Assembly: GCA_961205875.1 (NCBI GenBank)
Contig: OY540822.1
Coordinates: 1,924,501-1,988,500, forward strand
Direction: 5' to 3'
Source of the DNA: Sialis fuliginosa
Lineage: Eukaryota > Arthropoda > Insecta > Megaloptera > Sialidae
Length of the DNA stretch: 64,000 nucleotides
Made by a program: the position numbers and the translations under genes. This document shows positions 2-62,665 of this stretch, piece by piece. Position 1 is the stretch's first letter, and every line of letters starts with the position of its first letter. The notes beneath the pieces were generated by a model, which saw nothing but the letters and a program-made list of their open reading frames with translations, was not told the DNA's origin and did not search any database.

Positions 2-3000
2 GCACGTGATTGCCAGCAACGTATTCCGCGTTGTTTTACATGTAACATGAAAGGACATTTAAGTAACGAATGTGAATCAAAACAAAAAGAAAAGCGTGAT
101 CAAATAAAAAATGTTAAAGTTATTGACTACTCAGAAATTAACAATACTTACAAGAAAGCATGCAAAATCAATGGCTATGATGTTGTTGGTTATTTAGACA
201 CAGGAAGTGAGGTAAATGTTATTTCAATGTGTGTAGTAAGACGGCTGGAATTGAATATACAGAAAAATGAAAACGTATTGAAGGGATTCGGTGGTAAATA
301 TGTTTTTTGTAACTTAGAGGCAACGTTTTCTTTGCTAATAGATGACGTGTCATTAGACACCACAGCAGTGGTTACCGACGAAGTGTTAGACGGTGGAATG
401 GACATCATTATTGGTCAAACTGTTTTAAATACCGACGGACTATCAGTGGTAGTTAACAGTGGTGAAGCTAAGGTTGTAGAGGATTTATGTGATTATTTAC
501 GTGGAATAACTCTTAACGACTCTGCAGAACGCTCAAAAATAACATTAATGGAAAGTGTAAAAGTTTGTAGTGGAAAATCTGTACTAACGACAGTTAAAGT
601 GAATGATGTGCCAGAAGGAACGAATGTATATACGGCGGAAAAGGCATATGCTTTAGGCCAAGCTGTCGTGTACGTGCCAGCTGGAATTCATCAGGCTCCA
701 CGATCTCAGTTGATCATCTCAAATATGGGCAATCAGCCTATCTATTTCATGGAGGGTCAGTTGATAAGCCGAGGTGATGCGTGTGCTGAAATTCAAGCAT
801 CTAATGAAAAACTTTGTCTGAGGGTGAGTACTTGTAATAATGCATGTAGCAATCAAATCAACATAGATGAGGTTGATGTAGATAAATCAGTAGGGTCAGA
901 TGCAGTAAAGGCTCTCAAAGAGCTGTTGAATAAGTGGGGATGTTGTTTTGCGAGTACTACAAAGCAGTTGGGTGTCGTGCGAGATGAAAAACTGTCAATT
1001 GTGTTGAAAGATCCTAAACCTGTGTGTTATAAGCCTTACAGGCTGCCATTTAAAGAAAGAGAAATAGTACAAGAAAAAATTAAAGACCTTTTAGATGCTG
1101 GAATTATTAGAGAATCTAAATCTGACTTTGCAAGCCCAGTAATTTTAGTTAAAAAGAAAAACGGGGATCATCGTTTGTGTGTAGATTTCCGCGCATTGAA
1201 TAAAAATACAGTGAAAGATGTCTTTCCAATGCCAAATATAGAGGAACAATTGAACTGTTTAGCTAACAAAACATATTTTAGTAGCTTAGATTGTAGTCAG
1301 GGTTTTCATCAAATACCTGTATCTGAAGAGTCTATAGCAAAAACGGCTTTTATTACTACTGAAGGTCATTATGAGTACTTAAGAACCCCATATGGTTTAA
1401 TGAATGCACCATCCGTGTTTCAAAGATTAATAAATAAAATTATCGGTACTTTACATAATGAAAATATACTCGTTTATATGGATGACATTTTAATTCCTTC
1501 AACTACTGTAAAAGATGGTTTGTTCTTACTAAATAGGGTTTTTGATGTTATAAGTCAATCAGGACTTAAATTGAATTTGAAAAAGTGTTCCTTTTTAAAG
1601 TCAGAAATCGAATATTTAGGTCATACAATAAGTGCAACGGGTATTTCTCCAGGTAGTAAAAAGACAGAGGCTGTCGAGAAATTTAGAGTACCTCGTAATG
1701 TACATGAAGTGCGACAATTTTTAGGTTTAGCAGGGTATTTTCGCAAATTTATAAAGAGTTTTGCAATAATTGCGAGTCCTTTGACAAATCTAACGAAAAA
1801 GAATACTAATTGGTATTGGGGCGATCAGCAACAAAAAGCATTTGACTCACTAAAACAAGCGCTAGTTAATAAACCTGTGCTAACTTCATTTGATTCAAAA
1901 CTAGAAACCGAAGTACATACAGATGCTAGTAGCAAAGGATTAGGCGGAATTTTGATGCAAAAACAATTAAATGGAGATAAGCAACCCGTGGCATATTTTA
2001 GTAGAGTGACTAGTAGTGCAGAGCAAGTGTACCATAGTTATGAATTAGAAACACTGGCAGTTGTCGAATCTTTAAAACGATTTCGAATATATTTATTAGG
2101 CATCCACTTTAAAATTATTACAGATTGCAGTGCTGTACGATACACTTTCACAAAACGCGATCTTATTCCACGTATAGCTCGTTGGTGGTTATTAATTCAG
2201 GACTTTGATTTTGAGATTTTACATCAGTCAGGTAAATTAATGACTCATGTTGATGCTCTTAGTAGAAACGCTATTTCTGTAAATATTACTCAAGTTGCGA
2301 ATGTCGATGATTGGTTCTTAACGGTACAAATGCAAGATGATTGTTTGAGACAAATTGTGGATCAATTGAAGACAGGTACTAATGACTTTAAGGGAGAATA
2401 TGTATATAAAAATAATCGTTTGTATAGGAAAACTCATATTGGAGAAAGGTTAGTTGTGCCTAAATCAGCAAGATGGCAAATAATGAAAAAATATCACGAT
2501 GAAATTGGGCATCCAGGCCTTAAAAGATGTGAATCGCTAATTAAAGAAAATTACTGGTTTGCAAAGATGACGCGTTTTATAAAAAAGTATGTCTCTGCTT
2601 GTATTGACTGTGCATATAATAAGGGAAATCATGGGAGAAGTGAAGGCGAATTGCATCCGATCGAAAAAACTAGCGTACCAATGGATACAGTTCACGTAGA
2701 TCATATCGGTCCATTTCCAAAAAGTAAATCCGGATACATGTACATACTTACAATTGTTGATGCGTTTACAAAATATTTTATGGTAATGCCGTGTAAAACT
2801 CTTGGTTCAAGTGAATGTATCAAACATTTACGCCAAATATTCGGTACTTTTGTTGGGTATCCTAGAAGAATCATTTCTGACAGGGGTAAGGCATTCACTA
2901 GTAGATATTTTACCGAATTTGTAAATAGTAAACAAATAAGACATATCTTGACAGCGGTATGTACACCAAGGGCGAATGGGCAAGTAGAAAGGTTTCATAG

Positions 3001-3577
3001 AACATTTTTAAATTCTATAAAACCTTCGATAGATAATGAAAAGCATTGGGACGACAAAATTGCAGAAATAGTCTGGGGAATGAATAATACAGTGAATGCA
3101 AGTACTAATTATACTCCGTATGAGCTGATGTTCAGCCATAAAGGGCGACTCTTAAATAATTTAGAAAATGTAACATCGGAAAAAGATGTTGTAATGAAAC
3201 GAGAAAGAGCAGGTCGAAATTTAGAGAAAGTTGCTGAAAAAGCAAAAGAAAGGTATGATAAGAAACACAAGGCGCCAAGAAAGTATGTAAAGGGCGATTT
3301 GGTTTTGTGGAGGGATGGTATGTCCTGTGGTCGTACAGGAATCAATAAGAAACTTGATTCTTATTGTAATGGTCCCTATACTGTAATAAAGGTTTTAGGT
3401 AATGACAGATATGAAATTCGAAGTATAAAAGGGCTTAAAGGCTATAAAAATTTTAAAACAGTTGTGGCAGCTGACAGTTTGAGACGCTATTGTAGTACTC
3501 CCGGTACATCCAGTAGTTCTGAGTCTGATGATGAAATCAGAGATACAGAAGATTTGATTGATTTGCTTGAAAGTTAA
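2..3577 (+). CDS. Ty3/gypsy retrotransposon gag(end)-pol polyprotein, 5' truncated by window edge
   Basis: The frame is open from base 2, so the first ATG (base 47) is internal and the real start lies outside the window. Upstream of that ATG the frame encodes a CX2CX4HX4C zinc knuckle (end of Gag). Counting from the ATG: aspartic protease with DTGS at residues 51-54; reverse transcriptase with YMDD at about 477-480; RNase H with a TDAS motif; an integrase with an HHCC zinc-binding region, then the D, D and E catalytic residues, the last in a GQVERFHR context; and a C-terminal GPY-like tail. The frame is uninterrupted to TAA at 3575-3577, so enzymatically it may be intact. Gag's knuckle and Pol share one frame. 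No env follows. The clade is uncertain; the sequence around the RT core and the LTR edge recall mdg3/CsRn1-like insect elements. Confidence 0.93.
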   Translation, partial: ARDCQQRIPRCFTCNMKGHLSNECESKQKEKRDQIKNVKVIDYSEINNTYKKACKINGYDVVGYLDTGSEVNVISMCVVRRLELNIQKNENVLKGFGGKYVFCNLEATFSLLIDDVSLDTTAVVTDEVLDGGMDIIIGQTVLNTDGLSVVVNSGEAKVVEDLCDYLRGITLNDSAERSKITLMESVKVCSGKSVLTTVKVNDVPEGTNVYTAEKAYALGQAVVYVPAGIHQAPRSQLIISNMGNQPIYFMEGQLISRGDACAEIQASNEKLCLRVSTCNNACSNQINIDEVDVDKSVGSDAVKALKELLNKWGCCFASTTKQLGVVRDEKLSIVLKDPKPVCYKPYRLPFKEREIVQEKIKDLLDAGIIRESKSDFASPVILVKKKNGDHRLCVDFRALNKNTVKDVFPMPNIEEQLNCLANKTYFSSLDCSQGFHQIPVSEESIAKTAFITTEGHYEYLRTPYGLMNAPSVFQRLINKIIGTLHNENILVYMDDILIPSTTVKDGLFLLNRVFDVISQSGLKLNLKKCSFLKSEIEYLGHTISATGISPGSKKTEAVEKFRVPRNVHEVRQFLGLAGYFRKFIKSFAIIASPLTNLTKKNTNWYWGDQQQKAFDSLKQALVNKPVLTSFDSKLETEVHTDASSKGLGGILMQKQLNGDKQPVAYFSRVTSSAEQVYHSYELETLAVVESLKRFRIYLLGIHFKIITDCSAVRYTFTKRDLIPRIARWWLLIQDFDFEILHQSGKLMTHVDALSRNAISVNITQVANVDDWFLTVQMQDDCLRQIVDQLKTGTNDFKGEYVYKNNRLYRKTHIGERLVVPKSARWQIMKKYHDEIGHPGLKRCESLIKENYWFAKMTRFIKKYVSACIDCAYNKGNHGRSEGELHPIEKTSVPMDTVHVDHIGPFPKSKSGYMYILTIVDAFTKYFMVMPCKTLGSSECIKHLRQIFGTFVGYPRRIISDRGKAFTSRYFTEFVNSKQIRHILTAVCTPRANGQVERFHRTFLNSIKPSIDNEKHWDDKIAEIVWGMNNTVNASTNYTPYELMFSHKGRLLNNLENVTSEKDVVMKRERAGRNLEKVAEKAKERYDKKHKAPRKYVKGDLVLWRDGMSCGRTGINKKLDSYCNGPYTVIKVLGNDRYEIRSIKGLKGYKNFKTVVAADSLRRYCSTPGTSSSSESDDEIRDTEDLIDLLES

Positions 3578-5145: not shown

Positions 5146-5708
5146 ATATAGTACAGAACATTTTGAACAAAGAAATTAATTTTTATGTATCGTTTTGTTT
5201 ATTTAATTTTTAGATTTTTATGTTGTTAAAGTTTGCAAGTTCTAGCAAATTGTTTTATGGATTATAATAAAGTTTTTATAAAACATGTTAAGGTATGTGT
5301 AGTGCCGTCAGCGCCAGCTACTAGCGATATTATTAAAAATATTAAATTGTAAAATAAAAACAATAGAAAATTAATTGTCAAAAAAATATAACTTGGATTT
5401 GTAACACACTTATGGGACACCTTATATAAATGTAACTATTTTAAAAATATGCTGCTTGTCTAGCCTGACAACTTTTGTATTAAGTTTTCTTCCATTTGTT
5501 ATAATAAATTGAACTTGGGAAATCCTGTACTATATCGATTTTTTTATTGCAGTATTAGGTACAAAACAGCTTTTTGCTCGAGACCTCGGGAACTTAGGCG
5601 GTTGCGACCATTGAGACTTTTAATCGGGATGATTTAGAGAATATTTTCCAGTTGGTTTCAAAGAGATTGACTGAAAGCCATTTCCCTATCAAAAACTGCG
5701 GGTCCCTT
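5146..5708 (+). mobile_element. Right part of a long-TIR MITE (AAGGACCCCGCAG family) split by the gypsy insertion
   Basis: Nearly colinear with 37803-38375 of the complete copy at 37627-38375, including the right terminal inverted repeat ending in CTGCGGGTCC. The left TIR is missing because the gypsy LTR joins it at the sequence ATATA; in the complete copy the site reads CGATATAGTACAG uninterrupted. Noncoding. Confidence 0.8.
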
Positions 5709-5904
5709 TTAATTAGAAAATATTATTATTTTTATTTCATTACATTGGATTATTATTATTATTTTTTTTTAATAATTTGTTAAAGATCTGTTGTGTTTTA
5801 GATAGTTTTCGATGTTGTATCTTCTAAATTAATTACAAATATAAATAATTTCGATGTACCTACAGTTTTTAACTATATACAATTTTTATTATTTCAGAAT
5901 TAAA

Positions 5905-16659: not shown

Positions 16660-19625
16660 AAAACGGCCAAGTGCATGTTCGGTACTCACATGATGGGTTC
16701 CGTAGTCATTATGATTTGTAAAAAAAGTTATTTCAAAATTTTTCATAAACTATTTTTGCTACAGTGTTTGTTAAAAGCTACATTCTGGATTGTTTTCAGA
16801 TTTTTTGAATTGATAGTTTAGTTAGCTCTGACAACGACATTTAAAAGCAAATAATTCATGACTGGAGGGTTAAAATCAAAATATAACATACTTTATTGCA
16901 TTTTAGGAGACCTATCTAAAGACACCCCACCTAACAGATTAAGTGAATTTTTTTTTAATATACTTTTCAGTCTATGAGAAGGGGGTCCAAATAACTTTTT
17001 TTTTTAAATCTTATCATTTCTGTTTTTGGGTTATCAGTCTTCGTCCGTATACCAAATTTCATTTTAATCGGTATAAAATTTATATAGACAGACAGATTGA
17101 CAGAGCGAAACTACACTGCTTGTCACAATTAGTGGGACACTTTTTCAATGTAACACAGTTTTGGTAAAAATTGTCATATTAATATGAAAATTCATAAAAA
17201 TCATAAGTGTGGTGTTGTTTCAAAACCCAAAGAGTAAAAACTTTGTGCGTGCATCGATAACGGGTGTACAACCCTTGGAGGGGTGAAAAATGGAAAGTGG
17301 CAATTTCAAGTATTGAAAAAAAGTTTAAAAATTGTTTATTCCAAGATAATGATAAAATTCACATTAATTTTTATACGTAGAATTTATTTGAATCCTAAAG
17401 GTATAAATTATTTTTTTTAAATTAATATTTAATTCTATTTACCACCTGTTATCATCCCCTAAATTTAGGTTATTAGAAATATAGGATAATATGAAAGAAA
17501 TTTTAAAAATCTTCAAGGGTTGTTAGAAATAATCACAATAAATATAAATTTACAATTTCAATAAAATCCAGTAATTTTCAACCACTTTTCTACCCTTTAA
17601 TATTCAACCCCCTGTGTATTACAATTAATTCGAACAACGTAGGTAAAGATAAATTTTTGAAATTTACAAAATAGGTAGTAAACTGTATATACAACGGTAC
17701 TGTATGTTAAAAAACACAAATAAATTATAAGGGTAGGCACCAACCCTTAAATACTAAACCGCCCCAAATAGTAGGGTAGAATATTAAATTTATGTGTGAT
17801 TTTATAAGAAATCAATTAATGCTCTTATTTGAAGATTTTTGTGAAAATTTTGTGCACCACAATTCATCCCCTATAGATGTAGCTACCCTAAATTTAAAAA
17901 ATATACATTTTTTTTAAAACATCGTATCTAAAAATTTAGTGGAATTTTTTTGTCATCCTTTCGTAATATAAAAGGCCGACATTTGATCTTTCTACACCGG
18001 TAAAATTAAAACAATACAATATCAGGAACTACCCTTAAATTCTTATTTCTTAAAAATAAAATAAATTTTATTTCAATTAATATTGAAAATATAGGTATCT
18101 ATGGAAATGAATGGACAATTTACGAGTTTTTCATAAATTTGGCTCAAATTAATTAAGACGTTTCTGATAATGTATTGTTTTAATTTTACCGGTAACGAAA
18201 GAACAAATGTCGGCCTTTTATATTACGAAAGGATGAAACAAAAATACCACGGACTGTCTAGATACCATATTTAAAAAAATGTGTATATTTTTTTTAAATT
18301 GAGGGCACCTATATCCATAGGGGTGAATTGTGGTGCACAAAATTTTCAAAAAAATTGTTAAATAACAGCTTTAATTGATTTTACATAAAATCGCAATTGA
18401 ATTAAATTTACAACCTTATTATAGGGGGTGATTTAGTTTTTAAGGGTTGATGACTACCCTTATAACTTATTTGTGTTTTTTAACATACAATTCTGTTGTA
18501 TACACAGTTTACAACACATTTAGCAAATTTTAACGTCTCAAAACGATTGAATTAATTTGAGCCAAACTTATGAAAAACTCGTAAATTGTCCATTCATTTC
18601 CATAGATACCTATATTTTCAATATTAATTGAAATAAAATTTATTTTATTTTTAAGAAATAAGAATTTAAGGGTAGTTCCTGATAGTGTATTGTTTTAATT
18701 TTACCGGTGTAGAAAGATCAAATGTCGGCCTTTTATATTACGAAAGGATGACAAAAAAATTCCACTAAATTTTTAGATACGATGTTTTAAAAAAAGTGTA
18801 TATTTTTTAAATTTAGGGTAGCTACATCCGTAGGGGTGAATTGTGGTGCACAAAATTTTCACAAAAATCTTCAAATAAGAGCATTAATTGATTTCTTATA
18901 AAATCACACTTAAATTTAATATTCTACCCTACTATTTGGGGCGGTTTAGTATTTAAGGGTTGATGCCTACCCTTATAATTTATTTGTGTTTTTTAACATA
19001 CAGTACCGTTGTATATACAGTTTGCTACCTATTTTGTAAATTTCAAAAATTTATCTTTACCTACGTTGTTCGAATTAATTGTAATACACAGGGGGTTGAA
19101 TATTAAAGGGTAGAAAAGTGGTTGAAAATTACTGGATTTTATTGAAATTGTAAATTTATATTTATTGTAATTATTTCTAACAACCCTTGAAGATTTTTAA
19201 AATTTCTTTCATATTATCCTATATTTCTAATAACCTAAATTTAGGGGATGATAACAGGTGGTAAATAGAATTAAACATTGATTTAAAAAAAATAATTTAT
19301 ACCTTTAGGATGCAAATAAGTTCTACGTATAAAAATTAATGTGAATTTTATCATTATCTTGGAATAAACTGTTTTTAAACTTTTTTTTCAATACTTGAAA
19401 TTGCCACTTTCCATTTTTCACCCCTCCAAGGGTTGTACACCCGTTATCGATGCACGCACAAAGTTTTTACTCTTTGGGTTTTGAAACAACACCACACTTA
19501 TGATTTTTATGAATTTTCATATTAATATGACAATTTTTACCAAAACTGTGTTAAATTGAAAAAGTGTCCCACTAATTGTGACAAGCAGTGTATAAGGTTT
19601 CGTAGTTTTCTACGAAACCCTAAAA
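16660..19625. mobile_element. Dispersed repeat (GGCCAAGTGC...GAAACCCTAAAAATT) split by a palindromic element
   Basis: Left part about 16660-17113, right part 19591-19625. The two halves join at the TA target of the palindromic element. The ends (GGTTCCGTAG near the start, CTACGAAACCCTAAAAA at the end) recall a repeat widespread in insect genomes. Noncoding. Confidence 0.5.
17114..19590. mobile_element. 2.5-kb palindromic Tc1/mariner-type element
   Basis: Ends are CACTGCTTGTCACAATTAGT and its reverse complement, both flanked by TA. Each arm is about 1.03 kb and near-identical to the other in reverse complement, with a roughly 0.4-kb centre carrying further diverged inverted pieces. No open frame of note. 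Same family as 35798-38806 and 20150-20810. Confidence 0.85.
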
Positions 19626-31548: not shown

Positions 31549-34500
31549 CTAACATTTAATTGACATATTATAACCAAGTAGGAGAATGCTAGCTATTTGA
31601 TCATGTAATTGATTTATATAACTTGTTACTCTAACTTCGAATCTAGTATCACTATCACTGTTAGTAGTAACAGAGACAGTGGTATTAGTTCTGTCACTGT
31701 AACTGTCACTGTCACTGTCACTATCACCGTAGTCATACAGCTCATTCCCGTGCCGTAACAACAATTGTACTAGTTTGTAATTACCCGTTTTATACGCTAC
31801 TTGTAAAACTCGATCACCACAAACATCACTAATATTAACATCCGCACCTCGCTCTAATAACTCTCTTAATATATTTCTGTGATTACCCATAACAACATGA
31901 TGGAGAGCTGTTTCACCAAATAATGTGTTAACTGTGTTCAATTCTGCTCCTCTGTCTAATAGTACACGCACTACGTCTGCATGACCCCGGTAAGCAGCAA
32001 CATGTAGTATTGTATTACCAAATGTGTTAACTGTATTTACATCCATACCTCTATCTAACAGCTCATGCACTACGCCAGCGTGACCCCGGAAGGCAGCAAC
32101 ATGTAGAAAAGTATTACCAAATTTAGTAACTATGTTTACATCTACCCCCCTGTTTAATATTTCACGCACTACGTCTACATGACCCTGGTAGACACCAACA
32201 TGTAGAACAGTTTTACCTAATGTGTTAGCTGTATTTACATCTGTCTCTATGTCTAATAGTATACGCACTATGTCTGCGTGACCCTGGTAGGCAGCAACGA
32301 ACAGTGGCGTTACATTATTTTGATTAATTACATTCACATCCATACCTCTGTCTAATAACTCATGTACTACGTTTGTGTAACCCTGGTAGGCAGCTAAATG
32401 TAGAACTGTACTATCATCGTCAGAAATACGCATGTTCATATCTGCACCTCGCTCCAATAACTCACGCACTATGTCTGTGTGGCCAAAAGCGACAGCAGTT
32501 TGTAGAAGTGTGCCACTTTTTGTAATAACTTGATTCACATTCATCCCTGTATCTAAATACAGTCTCATTATGTCTGTGTGACCATTAGCAACAGCATTAA
32601 ATAAAGGTGTTCCACCACGTTTATCGAGTACGTTCATATCCAAACCTTTTTCAAAAAACACACGTATAGTGTCTGTGCTACCCCACACAGCAGCCCAATT
32701 TATAGGTGTTAAACCCAATATATCAGCTGTGTTAACAGCACCTTTATCTAGCAGCATACGAACAATCTCTGAGTGATTAGTAAATGCAGCATCATGTAGA
32801 GCTTTTCTACCTACGCGGTTACCATTACCGAACAAGTATTGGAATGATTTACTGTATTTATTTATATTTTGCTCAACACAATAATTTACAAGCTGTTTTA
32901 CAACTTTTATGTGACCTTTTTGTACTGCAACTGCAAGTGGTATTTCGTCATTTGACGTATAAGAAAGCATATATTCTATTATACTGCGATTATCTTCAAA
33001 ACATTTGAATATAAAACATACTGTTCCTGAATTATTCTCATTTGCAGCTAAGAATAAAATACTTAATAAAGGATCATTTACATTAACATATAACCATCCA
33101 AATTTTGTATCTTTATTTTTATAAATTTCAGAAATGTATACCTTTGTTTCATCAGTAAGTATTTTGGTTTGAATGTAACTATCTATACATTTTCTTAATA
33201 CTGTTAATTCACTATTTATCAATACATTTTTAAATAACAATTTAATAACTTCTTTTTCATGAAAGTTTTTTTCAATATAGTTTGCTACAAAATATTCCGC
33301 GAATGTCCTGTGGATGAATTCTGCTCTTTGATATCTTATTTGTGTAATTATACCTATTTTTATTATTTGATCTTTGAAGTCATCTTCAATTTGTTCTTTT
33401 GTTACTTCTTCACCAAAGAGTAATTTCAGTGCTAATATTTCATGATTTTTCTGATGAATTTTTTGTAACATTATTTCATCGATTTTAATAGATGGATTTG
33501 TTCCATCTTGCTTCTTTTTTTCTATTGAGTAGATTTGATACTTTTGGTTAACAAATTTGTTGAATAAATCTGGAAAATTTAATATTTCTTCAATTTTTAA
33601 TTCCTCGCCAATCGAATTGTTCAGCATCTCGGTTAGAATTCTCAATAGAAGAGGGATACATATAATTTGTTGTAAATTATATATTTTATTAATTTCTGTT
33701 ATTAATTTCTCGACATCTATATTTTTTGTTTGTAGTATTTTACTCATATATGATAGTTGATCTTCTTTATTGAACGGCTTTATTGATAATGAAAACGGTA
33801 CTTCTTCTAGACTGTCTCTTATTGTTAGTTCCGGCCTTGTCGTTATAAACAACTTGATAAATTTTATTTCGTTTAGTGATTTAATAAAATTAAATACAAT
33901 GTATTTATAATCCGGACAAATTTCATCAAATCCGTCCAGTAACAAAAATATTTTATTTCTATTTGCCACTGTAAATCTTAAAACATTCTCTGAAAGTTTA
34001 GAAGGTTTTACTTGAACTAATAATTTATCCTTTAAGAAAGCAACTGAGTCTTCTGGATTATTAAATTCAGGATTTTCATTAAAGACCTTAGTGTGGTCGT
34101 TAAGATTTAATCGGATAATTATATCAGTTGGGTAAATCTTTTGTAGATTATTAAATACACTACTGAGAAGTAGAGACTTACCCATTCCTGGACCATCGGA
34201 TATTAATATTGTTGTATTATGTGCGCTGAATAATTTATTTTCGTTTAAGATATTGTTATCAGAAGATTTATCGATTCCAAATATTTCTTTAAATTCTTCT
34301 GTTTTACTCCAATTTGAACAATACAGCTGCCTCGGAATATAAACATCTAATTTATTGATGCCAGGACGGTTAAACTGTATGTTTAAATTCTTATAATCAT
34401 CAACAAGGAAATACGTTAAAATATCTTCTGTTATTACTTCACTCAATTTCTCAATTTGTTCTTTTGTTAAAAAACTGGATTCTACATCAAGAATTTCAGC

Positions 34501-35744
34501 GAAACTGGACATTTGACCATTAAAAGATACGCATTTTTTTCCTAAAACATATTGTTTAGAGTCGTTAGATAAATGTTGGAATGTGTTTTCGTTATCTTCA
34601 TAAACTGGATGACAATTTTTCAATTCGGGTAAGTTTTGTTCTTTTGGAATTATAATGATGTATTTTTGTCCATCCTTTTTTAGAATATATTCTAATATTT
34701 CCAACTGGTCATCTGGTTTGACAACAATTATTAAGAGGTTAAACGAAGTTGCTGTTTTTATATCAGCCACTTGCTTAATGCTGTACACATGTTTCATAGT
34801 GAATTTTTTTATATCACATTTCTCTTCCCTCAATTTTTTTATTATTTGACAAATTTTGTGGAGGGTAAATTCAGAATTTTCAAATTTGATAGGAAATATA
34901 ATATAATCTGATTTTAAAAAATCGTACAATGGTATACTACTTTCAAAATCTAGTTTACTTTCTTCGTATTTACTATCACAAACTGATTGAATGTCTATTT
35001 CAGTAGTTTTAAATAACTCTGCTATTTCGTCTGATGTTATTTTTTTTTTATTATATAATGAAACATCCAGCATATTGTATAATTCATCCCATATTTGTGT
35101 TGTTGCTTTAGGTAAAATATTTTCTATTTTCTTTTTTACAAGACATTTATTCTCGTCATTGACAACAAATAACAGCTTATTCAGGAAGTTTCTCCACTCT
35201 TCTTTTGACACATTTGTGTTTTCAAAAAGTATATCAACGTTTTCTTCTTTTGTAAATTTGTACTGAAATTCAGTATCAAAAACAGGAATGAAAAATACAT
35301 TAGAAGAATGTAAACTTGTATTTGTTTTGTGACATTTCTGTAAGTAACCATCTTTTTGAATATCTAATGAGGCATTCGTGTATATGACGTATAAACTATT
35401 TTCAATATTTGGAATTTTTTTTTTTTTAAGAAAGTTTTTTAAGCTAAAAGTTTCTTTTTTTCCGTCGAACAGAAGATTGCTTGTCTTGATCGGGTTTTCG
35501 GATTTCTTGTTTTTTATTTGTATGAGTAGACGTGTCCAAGGTTCACTTTGGTTGTTTCTATACTCGTACACTAAATCATCAAACATACCAGCCTCTTTGT
35601 CCTCTTGGTGTAATATGTACTCATAGTTAGGATTCTCTTGTTTTAGTTGATACCCCTTCAAACACAGAGACATCGCCACGTGGTAGTGATAGTCGATTCC
35701 CCTTTTATTACCTTCAATGCCTCTATCCTTTGCAGTTTGTTTCT
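31549..35744 (-). CDS. Candidate nuclease-NACHT-ankyrin STAND protein, main exon
   Basis: A single exon of about 1,400 codons with no interruption; numbering is for the 1,427-residue frame opening at 35832. Residues about 36-180 look like a PD-(D/E)XK nuclease: E77, then FDD at 84-86, then QIK at 105-107. About 310-500 is a linker region. The NACHT ATPase has Walker A GPGMGKS (547-553), Walker B LLLDGFDE (630-637) and sensor FITTRPE (662-668), followed by a helical part with EFIHRTFAEYF (838-848). Twelve ankyrin repeats run from about 964 to 1370, then a Ser/Asp repeat and a short tail. This is the layout of innate immune STAND sensors: effector, switch, ligand-sensing repeats; function is inferred. 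The first 12 codons of the long frame come from a transposon end, so the true start is probably a separate exon at 39552-39588, joined at E30 (acceptor TTACACAG, exon starting at 35744). The spliced protein would be 1,410 residues. Confidence 0.85.
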
Positions 35745-35797
35745 CTGTGTAACAAGTTACCACAGTTTTACTATCACGCAAACTAATATTTATAATA

Positions 35798-38700
35798 CAC
35801 TGCTTGTCACAATTAGTGGGACACTTTTTCATTGTAGCACAGTTTTGTTAAAAATTATCTTATTAATATGAAAATTCAGAGAAATCATTAATGTGGTATT
35901 GTTTCAAAGCCCAAAGAGTAACAACTTTGTGCGTGCATCAATAGCGGGTGTAAAACCTTTGAAGGTGTGAAAAAAGGAAAGTGGCAATTTCAAGTATTGA
36001 AAAAAAGTTTAAAAACTGTTTATTTCAAGAGAATGATAAAATTCACATTAATTTTTATACGTAAAACTTATTGAACCCTAAAGGTATTAAGTATTTTTTT
36101 ATATCAATATTTAATTCTATTTATCACCTGAACCTAAATATAGGTCATCAGAAATATATAAAAATATGAAAGAATTTTTTTAAATCTTCAAGAGTTGTTA
36201 GAAATAATCACGATAAATATAAATTTACAATTTCAATAAAATCCGGCAATTTTCAACCAGTTTTCTACCCTTTAATATTCAACCACCTGTGTATTACAAT
36301 TAATTCGAACAACGTAGGTAAAGATAAATTTTTGAAATTTACAAAATAGGTAGTAAACTGTATATACAACGGTAAGTGTGATTTTATAAAAAAATCAATG
36401 AAAGCTCTTATTTGAAGATTTTTGTGAAAATTTTGTGCACCACAATTCACCCCTACGAATGTAGCTACCCTAAATTTAAAAAATATACACTTTTTTAAAA
36501 CATCGTATCTATAAATTCAGCGGAATTTTTTTGTCATCCTTTCAAAAAATAAAAGACCCACATTTGGTCTTTCTTCGCTGGTAAAATTAAAACAATATAC
36601 TATCAGGAACAACCCTTAAAAATTAAATAAATTTTATTTCAATTCATATTGAAAATATCTAGGTATCTATGGACAATTATTGGACAATTTATTAGTTTTT
36701 CATAAGTTTTAAAATAGTTCTGAGACATTGAAATTTACTAAATGGGTAATATGTTATAAGGGTAGGCATCAACCCTTAAAAACAAAACTACACCCGATAA
36801 TAGGGTTGTAAATTGAATTCAATTGCGATATACATATATTTTATAAAAAATTAATGAAAGCTATTATTTGAAGACTTTTTTGAAAATTTTGTGCACCACA
36901 ATTCACCCCTACGGATATAGCTATCCTTAATTTAAAAAAAATATACACTTTTTTAAAATATCGCATCTAGACAATCCGTGGAATTTTTGTTTCATCCTTT
37001 CGTAATATAAAAGGTACACATTTTGTCTTTCATTGCAGGTAAAATTAAAACAATACATTATCAGAAACGTCTCAGAATGATATAATTTGAACCAAACTTA
37101 TGGAAAACTAATAAGTTGTCCAATAATTGTCCATAGATACCTAGATATTTTTAATATGAATTGAAATAAAATTTATTTAATTTTAAGAAATAAGAGTTAA
37201 GGGTTGTTCCTGATAGTGTATTGTTTTAATTTTACCAGTGAAAAAAAACCAAATGTCGGTCTTTTATTTTTTGAAAGGATGACAAAAAAATTCCGCTGAA
37301 TTTCTAGATACGATGTTTTAAAAAAAAGTGTAATTTTTTAAAATTAAGGGTAGCTACGTCCGTGGGGGTAAATTAGGATGCACACAATTTTTACATAAAT
37401 ATCCATTTAATAGCGTTAATTTATTTTTCATATAAATATACTTGAATAAATTGTGTAACCCTATTTTTCTAGATAGTGTTGTTTATAAGGGTTGATACCT
37501 TCCCTTATAATTTATTTTTGATTTTTAACATATGGACCTGTTGTCTATATAGTTTACTATCTATATTATAAATTTCAGGAATTTGTCTTTACCTACGTTG
37601 TTCGAATTAATTGTAATGAAATTGTAAAGGACCCCGCAGTTTTTGATAGGGAAATGGCTTTCAGTCAATCTCTTTGAAACCAACTGGAAAATACATATTC
37701 TCTAAATTATCCCGATTAAAAGTCTCAATGGTCGCAACCGCCTAAGTTCCCGAGGTCTCGCACAAAGAGCTGTTTTGTACCTAATAATGCAATAAAAAAA
37801 TCGATATAGTACAGGACATTTTGAACAAAGAAATTAATTTTTATGTATCGTTTTGTTTATTTAATTTCTAGATATTTATGTTGTTAAAGTTTGCAAGTTC
37901 TAGCAAATTGTTTTATGGATTATAATAAAGTTTTTATAAAACATGTTAAGGTATGTGTAGTGCCGTCAGCGCCAGCTACTAGCGATAGTATTAAAAATAT
38001 TAAATTGTAAAATAAAAACAATAGAAAATTAGTTGTCATAAAAATATAACTTTGATTTGTAACACACTTATGGAACACCTTATATAAATGTAACTATTTT
38101 AAAAATATGCTGCTTGTCTAGCCTGACATTTTTTGTATTTAAAGATTTCTTCCATTTGTTATAATAAATTAAATATTGAACTTGGGAAATCCTGTACTAT
38201 ATCGATTTTTTTATTGCAGTATTAGGAACAAAACAGCTTTTTGCGCGAGACCTCGGGAACTTAGGCGGTTGCGACCATTGAGACTTTTAATCGGGATGAT
38301 TTAGAGAATATTTTCCAGTTGGTTTCAAAAAGATTGACTGAAATCCATTTCCCTATCAAAAACTGCGGGGTCCTTTATATTTATCGTGATTATTTCTAAC
38401 AACCCATGAAGATTTTTAAAAAATCTTTTGTATTTTCCTACATTTCTGTTGACCTAAACATAGGACACGATGACAGGGGATAAATAGAATTAAATTTTAA
38501 TTTAAAAAAACACTTTATACTTTAAGGGTTCAAATAAGTTCTACATATAAAAATTAATGTGAATTTTATCGTTTTCTTAGAATTAATAGTTTTTAAACTT
38601 TTTTTTCAATACTTGAAAATGCCACTTTCCATTTGTCACCCCTTCAAGGGTTGTACACCCGCTATCGAAGTATGTACAAAGTTGTTACTCTTTGGGCTTT

Positions 38701-38806
38701 GAAACAACATCACATTTATGATTTTTCTGAATTTTCATATTAATATGACAATTTTTTACAAAACTGTTACATTGAAAAAGTGTCCCACTAATTGTGACAA
38801 GCAGTG
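35798..38806. mobile_element. 3.0-kb palindromic Tc1/mariner-type element in the NACHT gene intron
   Basis: Ends match the 17114-19590 element (CACTGCTTGTCACAATTAGT) with TA on each side. Arms of about 0.9 kb (from 35798 and back from 38806) pair in reverse complement, with more sequence changes than in the 17-kb copy. A 749-bp MITE interrupts the right half. The left end supplies the spurious ATG that lengthens the NACHT frame. Confidence 0.85.
37627..38375. mobile_element. Complete 749-bp long-TIR MITE (AAGGACCCCGCAG family)
   Basis: Terminal inverted repeats of about 180 bp begin AAGGACCCCGCAGTTTTTGA, flanked by TA. The left TIR contains CGCCTAAGTTCCCGAGGTCT, and its complement lies in the right. 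Central sequence matches 5146-5708 closely. Nested in the palindromic element. Confidence 0.85.
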
Positions 38807-54869: not shown

Positions 54870-56440
54870 TACTTTCGAATTTGAGAAAACGAATTAGACC
54901 ACTGAATTCAGCATTAATTGAAGTAGTTATGATGACAATTACATGTTGATTAATCAATTCCTGTTCAAATGACAGGGGCGCAAAGTTGAAAAATGTATAC
55001 AAAAAATTATGTTACTGTCGCTTGTAAAATGTAATATTTATTGTACAGTCATAAATTCCAAGCCGTATATTTGGATTATTTCATTCGTAGAAGTTCAAAA
55101 ATTATTTTAAATGTCACATGAATGCGTTATTTTCAGTTTTACTGAAGTAAAACCACATTTTTAGTATAAAAAAACAAGATTTTTCAGCAAAGCACCTGCT
55201 GCCGATTGCGAATACCGAAAGATACCGCTTTGTATTAAGTAATGAGACTCACAAATGTCTTCTCTAGGATGTGCACTTCAGCCTAGATCTGCCCCTTTTT
55301 GCCCGTTTTCATTTGCTTGACTGTGAAACTCTTCTAAACGTACAAGAATGATATGTAGGTACATATTTATTTCACATTGTATAAACGAATATACATAGTA
55401 CTACGAGTGTACAAACTTTCTCTGGACCGTGAAATTTGAGGGTGGCTTCCTTTTATGATCTAAGCACCCATTAAGAAAATATTTTTCTAAATTCAACCCC
55501 TACGGGGGTAAAAAGGGGTGTAAAATTTTGTATGGGTAATTTTTTTTTGGTTGGATTTACATGAAACTTAAAATGAATACTCTATAATACAGATAATGAA
55601 ACTAGTATTTAAGTATTTCCCAAAATTAAACTCCTAAGTGGTGCAAGGGGGTGGAAAAGTTTATATGACGAAAAAAATTTGTTTATATTTACTCGAATGA
55701 AACATTGCACACATATTGTACAAGACAAATAGCATTTTCGAAAATTCAACCCCTAAGAGATGGGAGGAAAGGGGGGGGGGTTATTGGTGTTTAATTTTTA
55801 AAATTTTGATATATTTATCTACATACTTTTTTGCGATATTAAGGTAAATTCGGAGAAAATATAATAATATTCAATTAAAATTAAAATTTCAATATTCAAC
55901 CCCTAATAGCGTAAGAGGTGGATGAGGGTGGGTTTTTGATATGTTTATCTGCATAGTTGCTTTAGTTATACAGGTGAATTTGGACAAAACAGTCTTCAAT
56001 AAAAATAAAATATCGACACTCAACCCCTAATGGCCGGGGTAGTCAGGGGGTGAGTTTATGCAATTTTTAGTTTCATTCATAGTGTTAGAGCGAAACTTTG
56101 TTGTGGATTGTTGTAAGGAGATTACTTGTATTTAGATTGTTATTTATTTACACCGCGTGCTTATAAAATAAATTTTATTTAAATTGGATAACTTTTGAAA
56201 TATATTGGTCGCCATATTGTATCCGCCATTTTGAATTTTTAAATTTTTATAAAAAATTTGAATCAGCGTCCCAATAAAACCTTATAAAATGAATTCTATT
56301 TAAATCGGATAACTTTTGAAATATATTGGTCGCCATATTGGATCCGCCATTTTGAATTTTTAAATTTATATAAAAAATTTGAAATCAGCGTCCCAAAAAA
56401 CCCTTATAAAATGAATTTTAATTAAATCGGATAACTTCTG
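54870..56440. other. 1.6-kb foreign segment inside env, with inverted 40-bp edges
   Basis: The edges 54830-54869 and 56441-56480 are 40-bp inverted copies of one env stretch with a single mismatch. The inside is noncoding, with several spaced phrases TTCAACCCCTA (about 55493, 55744, 55895, 56016) followed by G-rich sequence, a diverged repeat ladder of about 120-250 bp. Exactly how much of the left end is env is uncertain. Confidence 0.6.
56161..56440. repeat. Tandem repeat, about 121-bp unit, 2.3 copies
   Basis: Each unit contains GGTCGCCATATTG, ATCCGCCATTTTGAATTTTT and CAGCGTCCCAA. The third, partial copy ends at the right edge of the foreign segment in env. Confidence 0.85.
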
Positions 56441-58222
56441 GACTTTTGGCCATAGAACAGGGTCTCCTGGCCCATAGTGCGTTGTAAAGAAATGCTGACT
56501 AAGCCTGTCACCCTGTTTGTTTGTGTACGCGTTGCTTATTAGCTCTGTTAATTCCGAAGCTTTGTAACTAGCGCTGTTCAGCTCGTTAATATGTGACGTA
56601 AATTTTTTTAAAGGGCGTATCTCATGATTATTTTCAGACAGATAACTTAAATTTTTAAACAAAGAAGTAATTACGATATCCAAATCTAGTTTAAAGGGTG
56701 GAATAAACTCTATTATTTCTGATGTGTAAATGCTATGAGGGATTAAAGTTGCTGATTTAGTATACGCTTTACAATAAGACGCTAAAGACAAACTCCCAGT
56801 TCCCATAACATTAACTGAAATTTTAAAATTTCCCTTAGAAATAGAAATATTCTTACATATAATTTGTATGCTCTCCGTTTCGGGAACCGTAAAAATCCAA
56901 GTGTTAGCTTTACTTAACTGTACCCAATATGAATTTCCCATTTGAATAATTCTCTTATCACAATTAGTAGGTAGATTATTGACCGGCTGATACAGCTTTA
57001 CTTCGCAATCGTCCCTCAGGTGAGAGGATAATATCGGCTGTTTTTGCTGACAGACGTAGTCACCATTACTTTTTCTGAAACATGAACTTAAATATTCGTT
57101 AGTTAATTTTACGTAATGCTGTTTGATTTCATCTATAGCTAGATAATCTGAAGAAGGGAAAATGAAAACGTATCTTAGTCCACAAATTTTAACTGGTAAC
57201 GGCGTAAGTTTATACAAATCGAATGCACCTAATTCTAGTAACGGTAATAGAATTACAACAGTTAATTTATTATCTAAATAAAATGCGTTTACTGTGGAAA
57301 GTTTCAATAGCTCGTGGGCGTTATTTACATCCAGCTCGATTGGTGGTTGTAGTCCTTGAGGCAATTTCGGCAGGATCCTTCGCAATTCTCGTAGAAGTGT
57401 GACTGGAGTTATGATGAACGGGTGAAGAATTCCCTTTTGAGCGTTCAATAGTGCGTTTATGATTCCATGAATTTCAAGTTGGAATTGTTGTATGACTGCT
57501 GACAAAGTGGCGATGTGTTCTTCTACGTCGGCGTCTTTAACATAGTTATACATATAGAGTATTTGTCCATTTGTCTCATTTATTTGTGTTAACACCCTGT
57601 CCAGTTTGTCGTTTAATAACTCTTCGTTGTATTGAATGTCGCCTAAAGTATTATTTACTGCGTGTACGGTTGACTTGATTATTGAAATTTGATGTTCCAT
57701 CAGCGTTTTCATTGTTGTACTTTCCGTTGCTAACTCATTAATTTTTGTATTGTAGAATTCGGCGTCGTCTTCGTCCATAGTCCCAAATAAATATTTCGCT
57801 GTCTTTCCCACAAAACCTGCGAGAGCTCTCTTTGATCGATAACCGTCTTCATAATGTGTACCGATCAGCTGATATACCATATTCTTCTCAGTTTTTAATT
57901 TTGCCAACATCTGCGGTATCAAATTCACATACCGCGAACAACTCGCTATGTGCTGCGTCGACACATCTTTACATACATTGAGAGTACTGTTGTGGTATCT
58001 TGTTATTTGCGTGAATTTTTCTTCATAGTGTGTAATATTTATATACGTTATTATTTTCCATTCGTCGTTATAGAATTTGATTTTCGCTATTTCTTCGAAA
58101 TGTATTCCCGGTGTGTTGTTATAGTATTTTAACTTATATACTTCTTCCGTGGCCTTGCCATAATGTAAAAATAGAAATGCCCAAAATATGTACAGCATCT
58201 TGATACCTGAAACAATTAAAAC

Positions 58223-61200
58223 TTAGTTTACAAAATGTTTCAGTCTGTTCGCGTGTACCTTTATGACACGGCGATTTCCTTTCAACGTGAAATTAACAGG
58301 AGAGGATTTGGATATGATCACGTATGGGCCCACCCACTGACTGGATAATTTTTTTGACCGGCCCCTTCTGACTGTCTGATCAAACAACAGGACTTTATCG
58401 CCAACCTTGAATTCCTTGTCGTTTATTTTTCGATCGTAGTATCCCTTAGCTTTTTCCTTTCTCGTTTGTAAATGTTCCTTAACGACCTCATAGGTAGATC
58501 TCAATCTATTTTTTAGTTCTAACACATAATTATCGTACGTGTATTGCGACTGTGGTTTGGTCTGTATGGATGCTGGTATGCTGGCTTTATGACCGTAGAT
58601 TAATTCGAAGGGTGAGTAACCCGTTGCAGTATGAGGTGTTGTGTTATATGAGAACATGGCATACGGTAACCATTGATCCCAATCTGTTTGGTCGGACTTT
58701 ACAAAGTGACGTAGATATTCGGCAAGAGTTCGGTGGCTTCTTTCCAATGCTCCATTGGTTTCCGGGTGATATGCTGAAGTATGTACCTTTTTTATATGTA
58801 ATAGCTTGCAGAGGTCCTTGAACATTTCGCTCATGAAATTTGATCCTTGATCTGTCAGTATACGATCAGGGATACCAAACTTGCAGATTATATTCTCTGC
58901 GAATTCTCTGGCTATGGTCTCGGTTTCCTGATTCTCAACGGCCATTGCTTCGGAATATTTACTCAGTTCGTCTTGAAATGTCAGTATATATTTCTTTCCT
59001 GTGTTAGTCACGGGCAATGGGCCTACTATATCCAATGCACAATTCTCAAATGGTTTGTCTGCCGTAGTCGTTATCACGAGGGGTTTCTTCGTCCTGCGGG
59101 ATAGTTTGTTTTTCTGGCATGACTCACATTTTTGAATCATATTTTTGACGTCCTTTTTTAAACTCGTCCAATAAAACCTCTCTTTTATTCTCCGGTAAGT
59201 GCGTCCAACACCTTGATGACCACCAAGCGGAGTGAAATGGAAATCGTGTAGAATCTGAGTCCTTTCTTGATCCGTTATATGTTCGTCATCATGAATGAGT
59301 AAATTCACTTCCGTTTCCTTAAATACGTCGCACAACATTTTCTTTATTTCGTGCCAATTTAAATTATTGTCTAATAGATTTGGTTTAGACATACATAATT
59401 TGTTTATTTTATTCCTTGTTACGAGTTCTCTTAACACTTGAAAACATTTAAGCAGTATCTGCGGCTGTCCCATATCCGTTTTCTTCTTCCTGGATATCAA
59501 ATAAAATATATTCTTGCCGCCCTTGCTTACTGTACATACGGAACCAACATCCTGATTCTGCAGTTTTTGTACGACCTTACTGCATATTTTGAAATCTGAT
59601 ACGTCGCGCGACACACAGCACGTGACCGCCTCGCTATCTCTCCCCTTTAGAGAACCTCTCACTTCTACAATAACATTGCAGGCTGCTTGATCAGCTGATT
59701 CGTGCTGACAATTACATTTTTCAGTATCTAGTATGTACATTCTGCTGAGTGCGTCTGCGTTCGTATTCGATTTTCCTGATTTATGTACCACATCGTATTC
59801 ATACTCGTTAAGTTTTATCCTCCACCTCATTAGTCTTGATCCTGGATCCTTGATGTTAAAAATCCATGTTAATGGTTTATGATCCGTTACGATGGTGAAT
59901 TTTCTTCCATACAGGTACGGCCTAAAATATTTTGTGGCCCAAACGATGGCGAGTAACTCTTTTTCTGTCGTACTGTAATTAATTTCTGCCTTGTTAAGGG
60001 TCCTGCTCGCATATGCGATAGGTAAATCCCGTCCAATGGTTCCTTGAGACAACACTGATCCTATCGCCATGCCACTGGCATCAGTTGTAAGGATGAATGT
60101 CCTGTCGAAGTCTGGATATTGTAATAACGGTGGTTCGACTAACGTATTTTTCAAATTTTCGAACGCATTTTCTTGCAGCGGTGTCCACTCAAATTTGGCA
60201 TCTTTCTTCAATAACTTATTTAATGGTTGCGCAATTTTACTGAAGTCCTTTATGAAACGTCTATAATATCCTGCGAGTCCAAGAAATCCTTTGATTTGCT
60301 TTTAATCCTTAGGACGTGGGAATTCCTTGACAGCTTCAATATTCGAAGGCTCAGGCTGGATTCCTTTATCAGTAATTACATGTCCTAGATAACTGACCTC
60401 CTTTCTTAAAAAGTTGCACTTTTCGGGTTGTAACTTGAGATCGAACTTCCTTAATCTCTCAAATATTTCTCTGACTTTGAGTTGATGTTCGCTTAGACTT
60501 TCTGCATATACTACTATATCGTCTAGATATACGTAACATTTTATTCCCTGTAATCCAGATAGTACAGCGTTCATTAATCTCTGGAACGTTGCACCGGATC
60601 CTTTGAGTCCGAACGGCATACGTGTGAAATGATAGTGCCCAAATGGAGTACTAAAAGCTGTTTTGGGTGCATCGTTTTGGTCCATTGGTATTTGATGATA
60701 ACCACTTGCTAAATCTAAGGTACTAAAATATTTAGATTTTCCCAATTGGTCCAGTATTTCCGTGATGTTTGGCAAGGGAAAAACTGTATCCTGAGTGACG
60801 TCATTCAATCTTCTAAAATCCACCACGACTCTCCATCTTTTCTTCCCGTCTGCTCCCGGTTTTTTAGGAACGACTATTAGTGGGGCGTTCCAAGGACTTG
60901 TGCTTGGAACTACAATTCCTTGTTTCTGCATATCCTTCACTTGCTTGTTAATTTCTTCCTTATGGGCCTCTGGTATCCGATAAGGCTTTACGTTTATTGG
61001 CGACGCTCCATCCTTGAGTGGTATTGTGTGTGTTACACTCTCCGTAAAACTCAGCGAGTCTCCTTCCAAAAAAAATATATCGTTATATTCTTCGCATAAA
61101 TTTAATAATGCGGTTTCTTCTTCCTTATTACAGTTATCCGTAGTAAGGGATTTTCTTAACAGGACGTTTCTGTTAGTTTTGATCGTGGTCGTTGATTTTT

Positions 61201-62665
61201 TATAACTGCGGACTTGAACTTCTTCTAACTCCACCTCTGGAATGGTTACAATGCGTTCTTTTTCAGTAGTGTTTATTATGCTGACACTACATTTACCATT
61301 GACTGGCGCCGTTAGACATCTACCGACAAATACGCCTTGTGTGAGTTCTCGTGTTTCACACACACCTTCGTAAGTAGAACTCGTGAATGCTGACACCAGC
61401 ACTTCGCTTCTCGGGGGCAATGCACGTTCTGGTAATCCTAATTTGATATTTTCATTACCGATTTCTAGTACATGTTTCTTGTAGTTGATAACCACACCAT
61501 ATTTATTAAAAAAATCTCGCCCTAATATGCCTTGACACGCGAGTGGAAAATCAGGACTCACTACATGGAAAGGATGTACGAGTTCTGTATCTCCGATTTT
61601 CATGTGAGCGTAAAATCGTCCTAGTGTCTTGATTTTTTCCTTGGCTATCCCCTTCAAGATTAAATTTTCTTCCGTGCATAGCTCTGTATTGTTGTCGAGG
61701 TCAGAAATTTTCATAACGCTGACGTCGGCACCTGAATCTAAGAACAATAATGCTGTCCCTGTTTCCATCTCTCTCATTTTTATTTCAACTCTGTCGTAGT
61801 CTTCTTTATGTGCAATTGTGTAACATTTTAGATCCTTCACCTTGGTTGTACTCGTTGCAGGATAATTTTTTGGAACTCGTACTTCTCTTCTTTTCTTTCT
61901 GCATTCTCTCTCATAGTGACCAAAATTATGACAATAACTGCATCGTACGTTTCGAGCAAAACGAACGGATTTTGAAGCGCTATAGTTAATACGTGATTCT
62001 TGCTGCGGTCTCTGATCTCTCTTAACTGAATCCTCCTCGGCTAGGGCTGTTGAAATCGCTTCATCGATAGAGTTGTGTCCTCGAGCCTTTACCATTAATT
62101 TTAGAGGTTGTTGAAGACCCTCTAAAAAAACGTTTAGTGCCTGTGACGCAATTAAGTCATTAATTGCAGTCACACTCGTGCCCGATTTTCCGGCTGTGGA
62201 AATGTTTCTTAAGGCGTTGACTGTCTTTTCTAGGCGCTGAACATACTGAGAGACGCTTTCGTTTCTTCCTTGCCGCGTGTTGACGAATTCGGATTGTAGA
62301 TGGGTTAAATTTCTCCGATCCACAAAATGAGATTGTAGATGAGATTTCAATTCGGTCCAACCAGCAATTTGTCGATGTTGTATTGAACTATATGCTTCTT
62401 TTTTTAATTTGCCTCTTACAATTTCAAATAAAATGGGTGCTAGTTCTGTCTCAATTCCATTGAAACAGACGTCGCAAGCACTTACAAATCTGTTGAGTTC
62501 GTCGGTCGTCCCATCAAATTCAGGAATAATTCTGCTGGCTAGTTCCAGGCTTATTTTACTCATGTTGTTTTCTTCTATCTCTGCAGGTTCCTCAGACTGG
62601 TTAGATTCTTCAGGCTGGTCACCAGGCAGGCTTTCTCTCGGAGTGTTCCGGGTACTTATCACCAT
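58223..62665 (-). pseudogene. gag-pol: Gag-pol polyprotein of the errantivirus-like element, one nonsense codon
   Basis: One frame of 1,481 codons (4,443 bases) begins with ATG at 62665 and ends at 58223. It is broken only by TAA at 60302-60304, with the same frame open on both sides. Upstream of the stop: Gag (to about 240), CCHC knuckle (242-255), protease LDSGA (309-313), reverse transcriptase with YLDD (713-716). Just after the stop: the end of the RT connection (FLGLAGYYRRF), then RNase H (TTDAS; second and third acidic residues present), HHCC and the DDE integrase core (TDQGSNF; NGALERSH), and a GPY motif near the end. The stop lies within RT, not at the Gag/Pol border where recoding occurs, so it is most simply a mutation. 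As it stands only a truncated product without RNase H or integrase would be made. Confidence 0.9.

Follow-up and report, generated by a model that had tools for sequence, protein, structure and literature searches.

The stretch of DNA considered here, 64,000 nucleotides of contig OY540822.1 of Sialis fuliginosa (positions 1,924,501 to 1,988,500; in the following the window), carries a gene for a protein with an N-terminal nuclease-like domain, a NACHT ATPase and ankyrin repeats. The question raised by the locus is whether such an insect protein could be a sensor that cuts nucleic acid when triggered, as had been suggested in a preliminary description of the sequence. The analyses indicate that it is probably an animal sensor of the STAND type (signal transduction ATPase with numerous domains) armed with a Cap4-like nuclease, in which ankyrin-triggered assembly of the NACHT domain would lead to cleavage of nucleic acid, with a role in recognition. 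The gene has the following features.

31549..35832, minus strand: open reading frame (ORF) of 1427 codons with no internal stop; likely coding exon 31549-35744
34987..35718, minus strand: Cap4-like PD-(D/E)XK nuclease domain, residues 39-282, the span being that of the structural match
35602..35604, minus strand: E77; of the 14 proteins 11 have E here and 3 have N, and all 21 copies found in this genome have E
35575..35580, minus strand: D85-D86, predicted metal ligand(s), D86 standing opposite the catalytic D45 of AbpA in the alignment
35512..35520, minus strand: Q105-I106-K107, Q-x-K motif, opposite Q58 and K60 of AbpA in the alignment
34393..34905, minus strand: pre-NACHT region, residues about 310-480, from the homologue consensus
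33730..34206, minus strand: NACHT ATPase, residues 543-701, with Walker A GPGMGKS and Walker B LLLDGFDE
31663..32985, minus strand: ankyrin repeats, residues about 950-1390, limits set by eye; partly a 99-nt tandem array

E77, F84-D85-D86 and Q105-I106-K107 are present at the residues that the preliminary description had assigned to them, and GPGMGKS is located at 547 and LLLDGFDE at 630. The NACHT domain is detected with PF05729 (E 4.6e-8, 33.5 bits against a Pfam cut-off of 26.7) and contains both Walker motifs, which places the protein in the NACHT clade of the STAND ATPases. Of the ankyrin repeats, twelve in the preliminary description, about 12-13 are seen by eye and 10 are detected by the repeat hidden Markov model (HMM); the Pfam ankyrin models are strongly positive. 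The units of the 99-nt array, which makes up part of 31663-32985, are 73-78% identical to a reference unit, which suggests turnover of the repeats. The pre-NACHT region is partly conserved in the homologues (FQG..SL motif), with modest model confidence, and no Pfam family above cut-off was found in residues 1-500.

Predicted fold and catalytic residues of the nuclease domain

The predicted structure of the N-terminal domain contains the PD-(D/E)XK core with a Cap4-like fold, in agreement with the fold first read from the sequence, and among the solved chains listed by the fold search those of Cap4 and Hachiman cover the domain best, tied. Cap4 is a metal-dependent, DNA-cleaving effector (PF14130) of the cyclic-oligonucleotide-based antiphage signalling system (CBASS), and its group includes AbpA of E. 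coli K-12 and the Lamassu protein LmuA with its Cap4 domain. The likeness to Cap4, AbpA and LmuA consists of the predicted fold and of the same order of elements, a helix with G-x-x-[YF], then DD, then Q-x-K; identity to AbpA is low (14-20% in alignments). PF14130 gave no match for the window's domain or for any of the 14 members of the protein set described below, with E 1e-55 for AbpA as the control. The LmuA profile of PADLOC matched one cut of the protein (E 2.4e-6) and gave no match for five other cuts or the whole protein. The alignment with one E. coli Mrr sequence spanned 13 columns near the QAK motif and gave 0.2%, and that with the single AbpA sequence gave 19%. A single-sequence structure prediction of residues 1-511 was not usable (predicted local distance difference test score 33.6).

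Conservation was assessed in a set of 14 proteins, that of the window and 13 relatives, with nuclease domains only 20-33% identical to the window's domain. All 14 share D85, D86, Q105 and K107, and to this extent the conservation expected in the preliminary description holds, but E77 is replaced by N in P0019, P0039 and P0041, and also in both copies linked to phage WO. Only six of 175 columns are invariant, D85, D86, Q105, K107, F129 and T152; that four of the six are the named D, D, Q and K has a p of about 4e-7, a value that ignores kinship and includes three rows chosen with a motif pattern. According to the accessible part of PMC10732053, Cap4 requires D50, E67 and K69, the AbpA equivalents are D45, Q58 and K60, and the AbpA variants Q58A and K60A lose defence; E77 is outside this published triad (D, E/Q, K). 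D86, Q105 and K107 align with D45, Q58 and K60 and are invariant, and together with D85 they are the predicted catalytic residues.

The protein searches scored the 7987 candidates sharing most words, and the resulting counts are minimum numbers. At least 36 proteins were obtained via the NACHT region and at least 21 more via an alignment (A1), several of these by ankyrin repeats alone. The A1 search was partly driven by the ankyrin repeats, and of its 21 rows P0037, P0039 and P0041 were kept as nuclease members; when the full alignment was run against PDB, 603 chains were found, the best 60 of which matched in the ankyrin part. A query with residues 30-520 gave no match in the protein search, and the relatives were found with the NACHT region. 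The 14-protein set was selected partly with a motif pattern (three rows). With the motifs masked, the full HMM recovered the 13 members together with the two WO copies, all at E 2.2e-26 or lower; no other target scored below 0.4, the targets being 57 proteins and the ORFs of L001-L012. A motif-masked HMM built from 9 of the 14 rows recovered P0037, P0039, P0041, P0011 and both WO copies and missed P0034 (E 1.0). Because members are still recovered with masked motifs, the selection bias is answered for most rows.

The gene family in Sialis and its relatives

The search of the Sialis genome (392 Mb, 20 contigs) gave 75 matches. The counts of paralogues are lower bounds, since 33 of the 315 first-look candidates were scored. 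The nuclease domain was found, in part or whole, in 29 of the 30 fetched loci, which grouped by position represent 20 genes, and a more divergent copy with 29% identity (L051) is the 21st, which brings the family to 21 or more copies with the nuclease. Each of the 21 shows E77, FDD at residues 84-86 and Q-x-K at 105-107, and the aligned nuclease block is without a stop in all 20 genes. The median ratio of nonsynonymous to synonymous substitution (dN/dS) of 0.29 indicates that the nuclease domain is under purifying selection as a group; it is based on those 95 of the 190 pairs whose dS lies at 0.05-1.5, so that nearly identical pairs and more divergent ones are excluded, and the pairs are not independent. 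Very young pairs exist among L022, L024 and L028 (dS 0 to 0.03).

The number of detected ankyrin repeats varies from 2 to 12 in the nine copies that were followed to a stop past the NACHT domain: 10 in L021, 10 in L022, 12 in L023, 11 in L024, 5 in L025, 6 in L026, 3 in L027, 4 in L028 and 2 in L029. The low count in L028 may be a truncation, because a stop lies inside its match. Zero counts for L035-L039, L041, L046 and L048 are meaningless, as their frames leave the fetched stretch, and in L032, L034 and L049 the frame closes early, which may reflect a broken gene or additional exons. Of the 21 copies, six are located within 0.21 Mb of contig starts (C8:34079; C9:128624-206191, three close together; C11:176487; C14:165104) and are perhaps subtelomeric.

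Outside Sialis, the nuclease domain was found in 13 of the 57 proteins among the matches listed. The bearers include proteins of Halyomorpha, Anoplophora, Onthophagus, Culex, Contarinia, Loxostege and Zophobas, and P0001, P0008, P0011, P0016, P0019 and P0023, which carry no species name. P0025 of Ignelater has a degenerate nuclease copy in residues 27-169 that has lost the DD and the Q, and was omitted from the 14 (E 1e-4 unmasked, 0.47 masked). In some members a lipase-like N-terminus takes the place of the nuclease: P0010 and P0014 score just above the Lipase_3 cut-off, and for P0002 and P0030 the assignment comes from precomputed Pfam matches. The effector end thus seems to have been exchanged within the NACHT family. 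PHROG family 9049, which has no function assigned, matches 6 of the 14 members (best E 3.2e-43). In P0008, a cysteine-protease-like segment at residues about 60-260 (Ulp1-like by eye, with no Pfam hit) precedes the nuclease domain.

The 14-protein model also finds the nuclease in two IMG/VR contigs, L009 (E 1.3e-34) and L010 (E 1.8e-33). Positions 10700-13209 of L009 match 16 phage records, all 16 of Wolbachia phages, with baseplate genes in the annotated ones; for L009 1-4800 and the whole of L010 the phage records gave no match, and the link of L010 to WO is its identity of 99.9-100% to L009 at the protein level. The domains of L010 follow one another as nuclease (1085-1256), NACHT (about 2007-2567) and ankyrin repeats (2986-3438); upstream of them are further ankyrin repeats and a weak match to OTU. 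The WO-linked gene is open across L010 1-13209 and interrupted in L009 2-10647. The NACHT tree leaves 15 of its 32 inner branches open and has a long branch for Loxostege; in it, WO and Loxostege form a pair (97/70) inside a group that contains Onthophagus (99/94). This agrees with a position of the WO sequence within arthropod diversity, as found in the accessible part of PMC5062602 (2016), which relates arthropod NACHT proteins to a gene of phage WO that has ankyrin repeats as well as a latrotoxin domain. The family described there is alike in its arthropod NACHT proteins and its ankyrin-bearing WO relative; the accessible text does not contain the words nuclease or endonuclease, and the present analysis adds to it the nuclease domain, its relationship to Cap4 and the expansion within a single genome.

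A search with tblastn using the N-terminal part or a homologous fragment gave no match in phages or plasmids, nor did a single-sequence scan in viral contigs. Eight bacterial loci from a profile genome scan were rejected, the nuclease HMMs finding no significant copy there.

Proposed mechanism and alternative explanations

Avs proteins, which recognise viral terminase or portal, carry a C-terminal sensor resembling tetratricopeptide repeats, and the layout of Avs1-4 is only partly matched: nuclease and STAND ATPase are present, but the sensor is made of ankyrin repeats and the gene is an animal one. Cap4-type nucleases pair with SAVED, HamA or Lamassu partners, whereas the window's protein has NACHT and ankyrin repeats instead. 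It differs from animal nucleotide-binding leucine-rich repeat receptors (NLRs) such as NLRC4, NOD2 and NLRP3 in its nuclease-like N-terminus; with Pfam no leucine-rich repeat family up to E 1 and no death-fold domain were found in it, and the ankyrin families were. The animal lineage concerned is often described as lacking classical NLRs. The preliminary statement that insects are poor in NLR-like sensors needs qualifying, as arthropod-wide NACHT homologues are already reported in the accessible part of PMC5062602 and at least 21 nuclease-bearing copies are found here. No description of a Cap4-like nuclease in insect NACHT proteins was found in the open-access literature, subscription journals being mostly outside this search.

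NACHT ATPases by their nature lend themselves to forming oligomers. For Cap4, oligomerisation is given as the presumed means of activation (PMC10586767, accessible part). From these two points a course from ligand through assembly and nuclease activation to cleavage is proposed. The ankyrin repeats would bind a ligand, upon which the NACHT ATPase would exchange nucleotide and oligomerise, bringing the N-terminal nuclease domains together to cut nucleic acid, most likely double-stranded DNA. The metal would be held by D86, with D85, and Q105, and K107 would take part in catalysis. Parasites, symbionts or mobile DNA may be the targets recognized; a role in recognition fits a family of 21 or more copies that includes young ones and varies in ankyrin number. 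The analysis itself shows the sequence elements and their conservation, the predicted fold, the gene family and its purifying selection; activity, substrate, oligomerisation, trigger and immune role are inferred from these.

The replacement of E77 by N in three members and the WO copies, together with the loss of DD and Q in P0025, would agree with a former nuclease that has become a scaffold or nucleic-acid-binding adaptor and signals by assembling partners. This is judged rather improbable, given that D85, D86, Q105 and K107 are invariant in all 14 proteins despite their low identity and in all 21 genome copies, and that E77 does not belong to the triad in the accessible part of PMC10732053. 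The same Cap4-like mechanism might instead serve a task other than immunity, such as control of transposable elements, germline genome defence or programmed cell death during development. The expanded family, the copies close to contig starts and the transposable elements surrounding the locus are in line with such a task, which appears rather unlikely; the variable ankyrin number in close copies, an indirect argument, fits changing ligands better.

A further explanation concerns origin and is compatible with a nuclease-armed sensor: the gene could have entered the insect genome from a symbiont or from phage WO, in which case what it does today may be a remnant of a symbiont effector. L009 and L010 share the nuclease and the order nuclease-NACHT-ankyrin, and L009 has the match to WO baseplate genes. 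Against this, in the NACHT tree, with its open inner branches, WO groups with Loxostege within the Onthophagus group, which fits better with the phage having taken the gene from an insect. The window's gene is moreover not close to WO (26% in the NACHT region), and the opposite direction has a very small probability. For the sensor with an active nuclease, a wider picture can be offered tentatively, its chances being put slightly short of even. Arthropods would possess a large, fast-changing repertoire of nuclease-armed NLR-like receptors in the style of Avs and Cap4, with swaps of effector (nuclease, lipase-like) and ankyrin repeats, which by direct cutting without a signalling cascade would kill or cleanse infected cells, and one of which WO took up. 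If so, there would be a multigene family of intracellular sensors with a nuclease as effector, as in bacterial antiphage systems, and bacterial and animal immunity would be linked at the level of the executing enzyme. The conflict with Wolbachia and its phage would gain a candidate participant in this family, and insect sensing of intracellular invaders would be directly testable with point mutants.

Exon limits and surrounding elements

The start at 35744 given in the preliminary description is the base directly after the acceptor-like TTGTTACACAG, and the coding exon likely begins there. An acceptor-like CAG or TAG was seen by eye near the same point in all 20 paralogous copies inspected. 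The ORF extends for an additional 29 N-terminal residues, of which about 12 codons derive from the terminal inverted repeat of a transposable element. The first exon of the gene was not found, and Rfam and tRNA scans of the window gave no matches. The surrounding elements are the following.

35798..38806, no strand assigned: long-inverted-repeat transposable element, TA-flanked, with a nested insertion; presumed intron adjoining the exon
56366-62665, minus strand: retroelement ORFs for gag, protease, reverse transcriptase, RNase H, integrase and a Baculovirus F-type envelope
47-3577, plus strand: pol ORF of a second retroelement, with reverse transcriptase, RNase H and integrase

The remaining ORFs of at least 250 amino acids in the window are retroelement genes, and no search aimed at an SMC-like LmuB partner was made. 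The long-inverted-repeat element has the ends CACTGCTTGTCAC, flanked by TA, and other copies lie at 17114-19590 and from 20150. Its end has five close matches within the window, each of which starts with CACTG and has TA before it. Part of the nested insertion (37804-38376) is 95% identical to 5146-5709.
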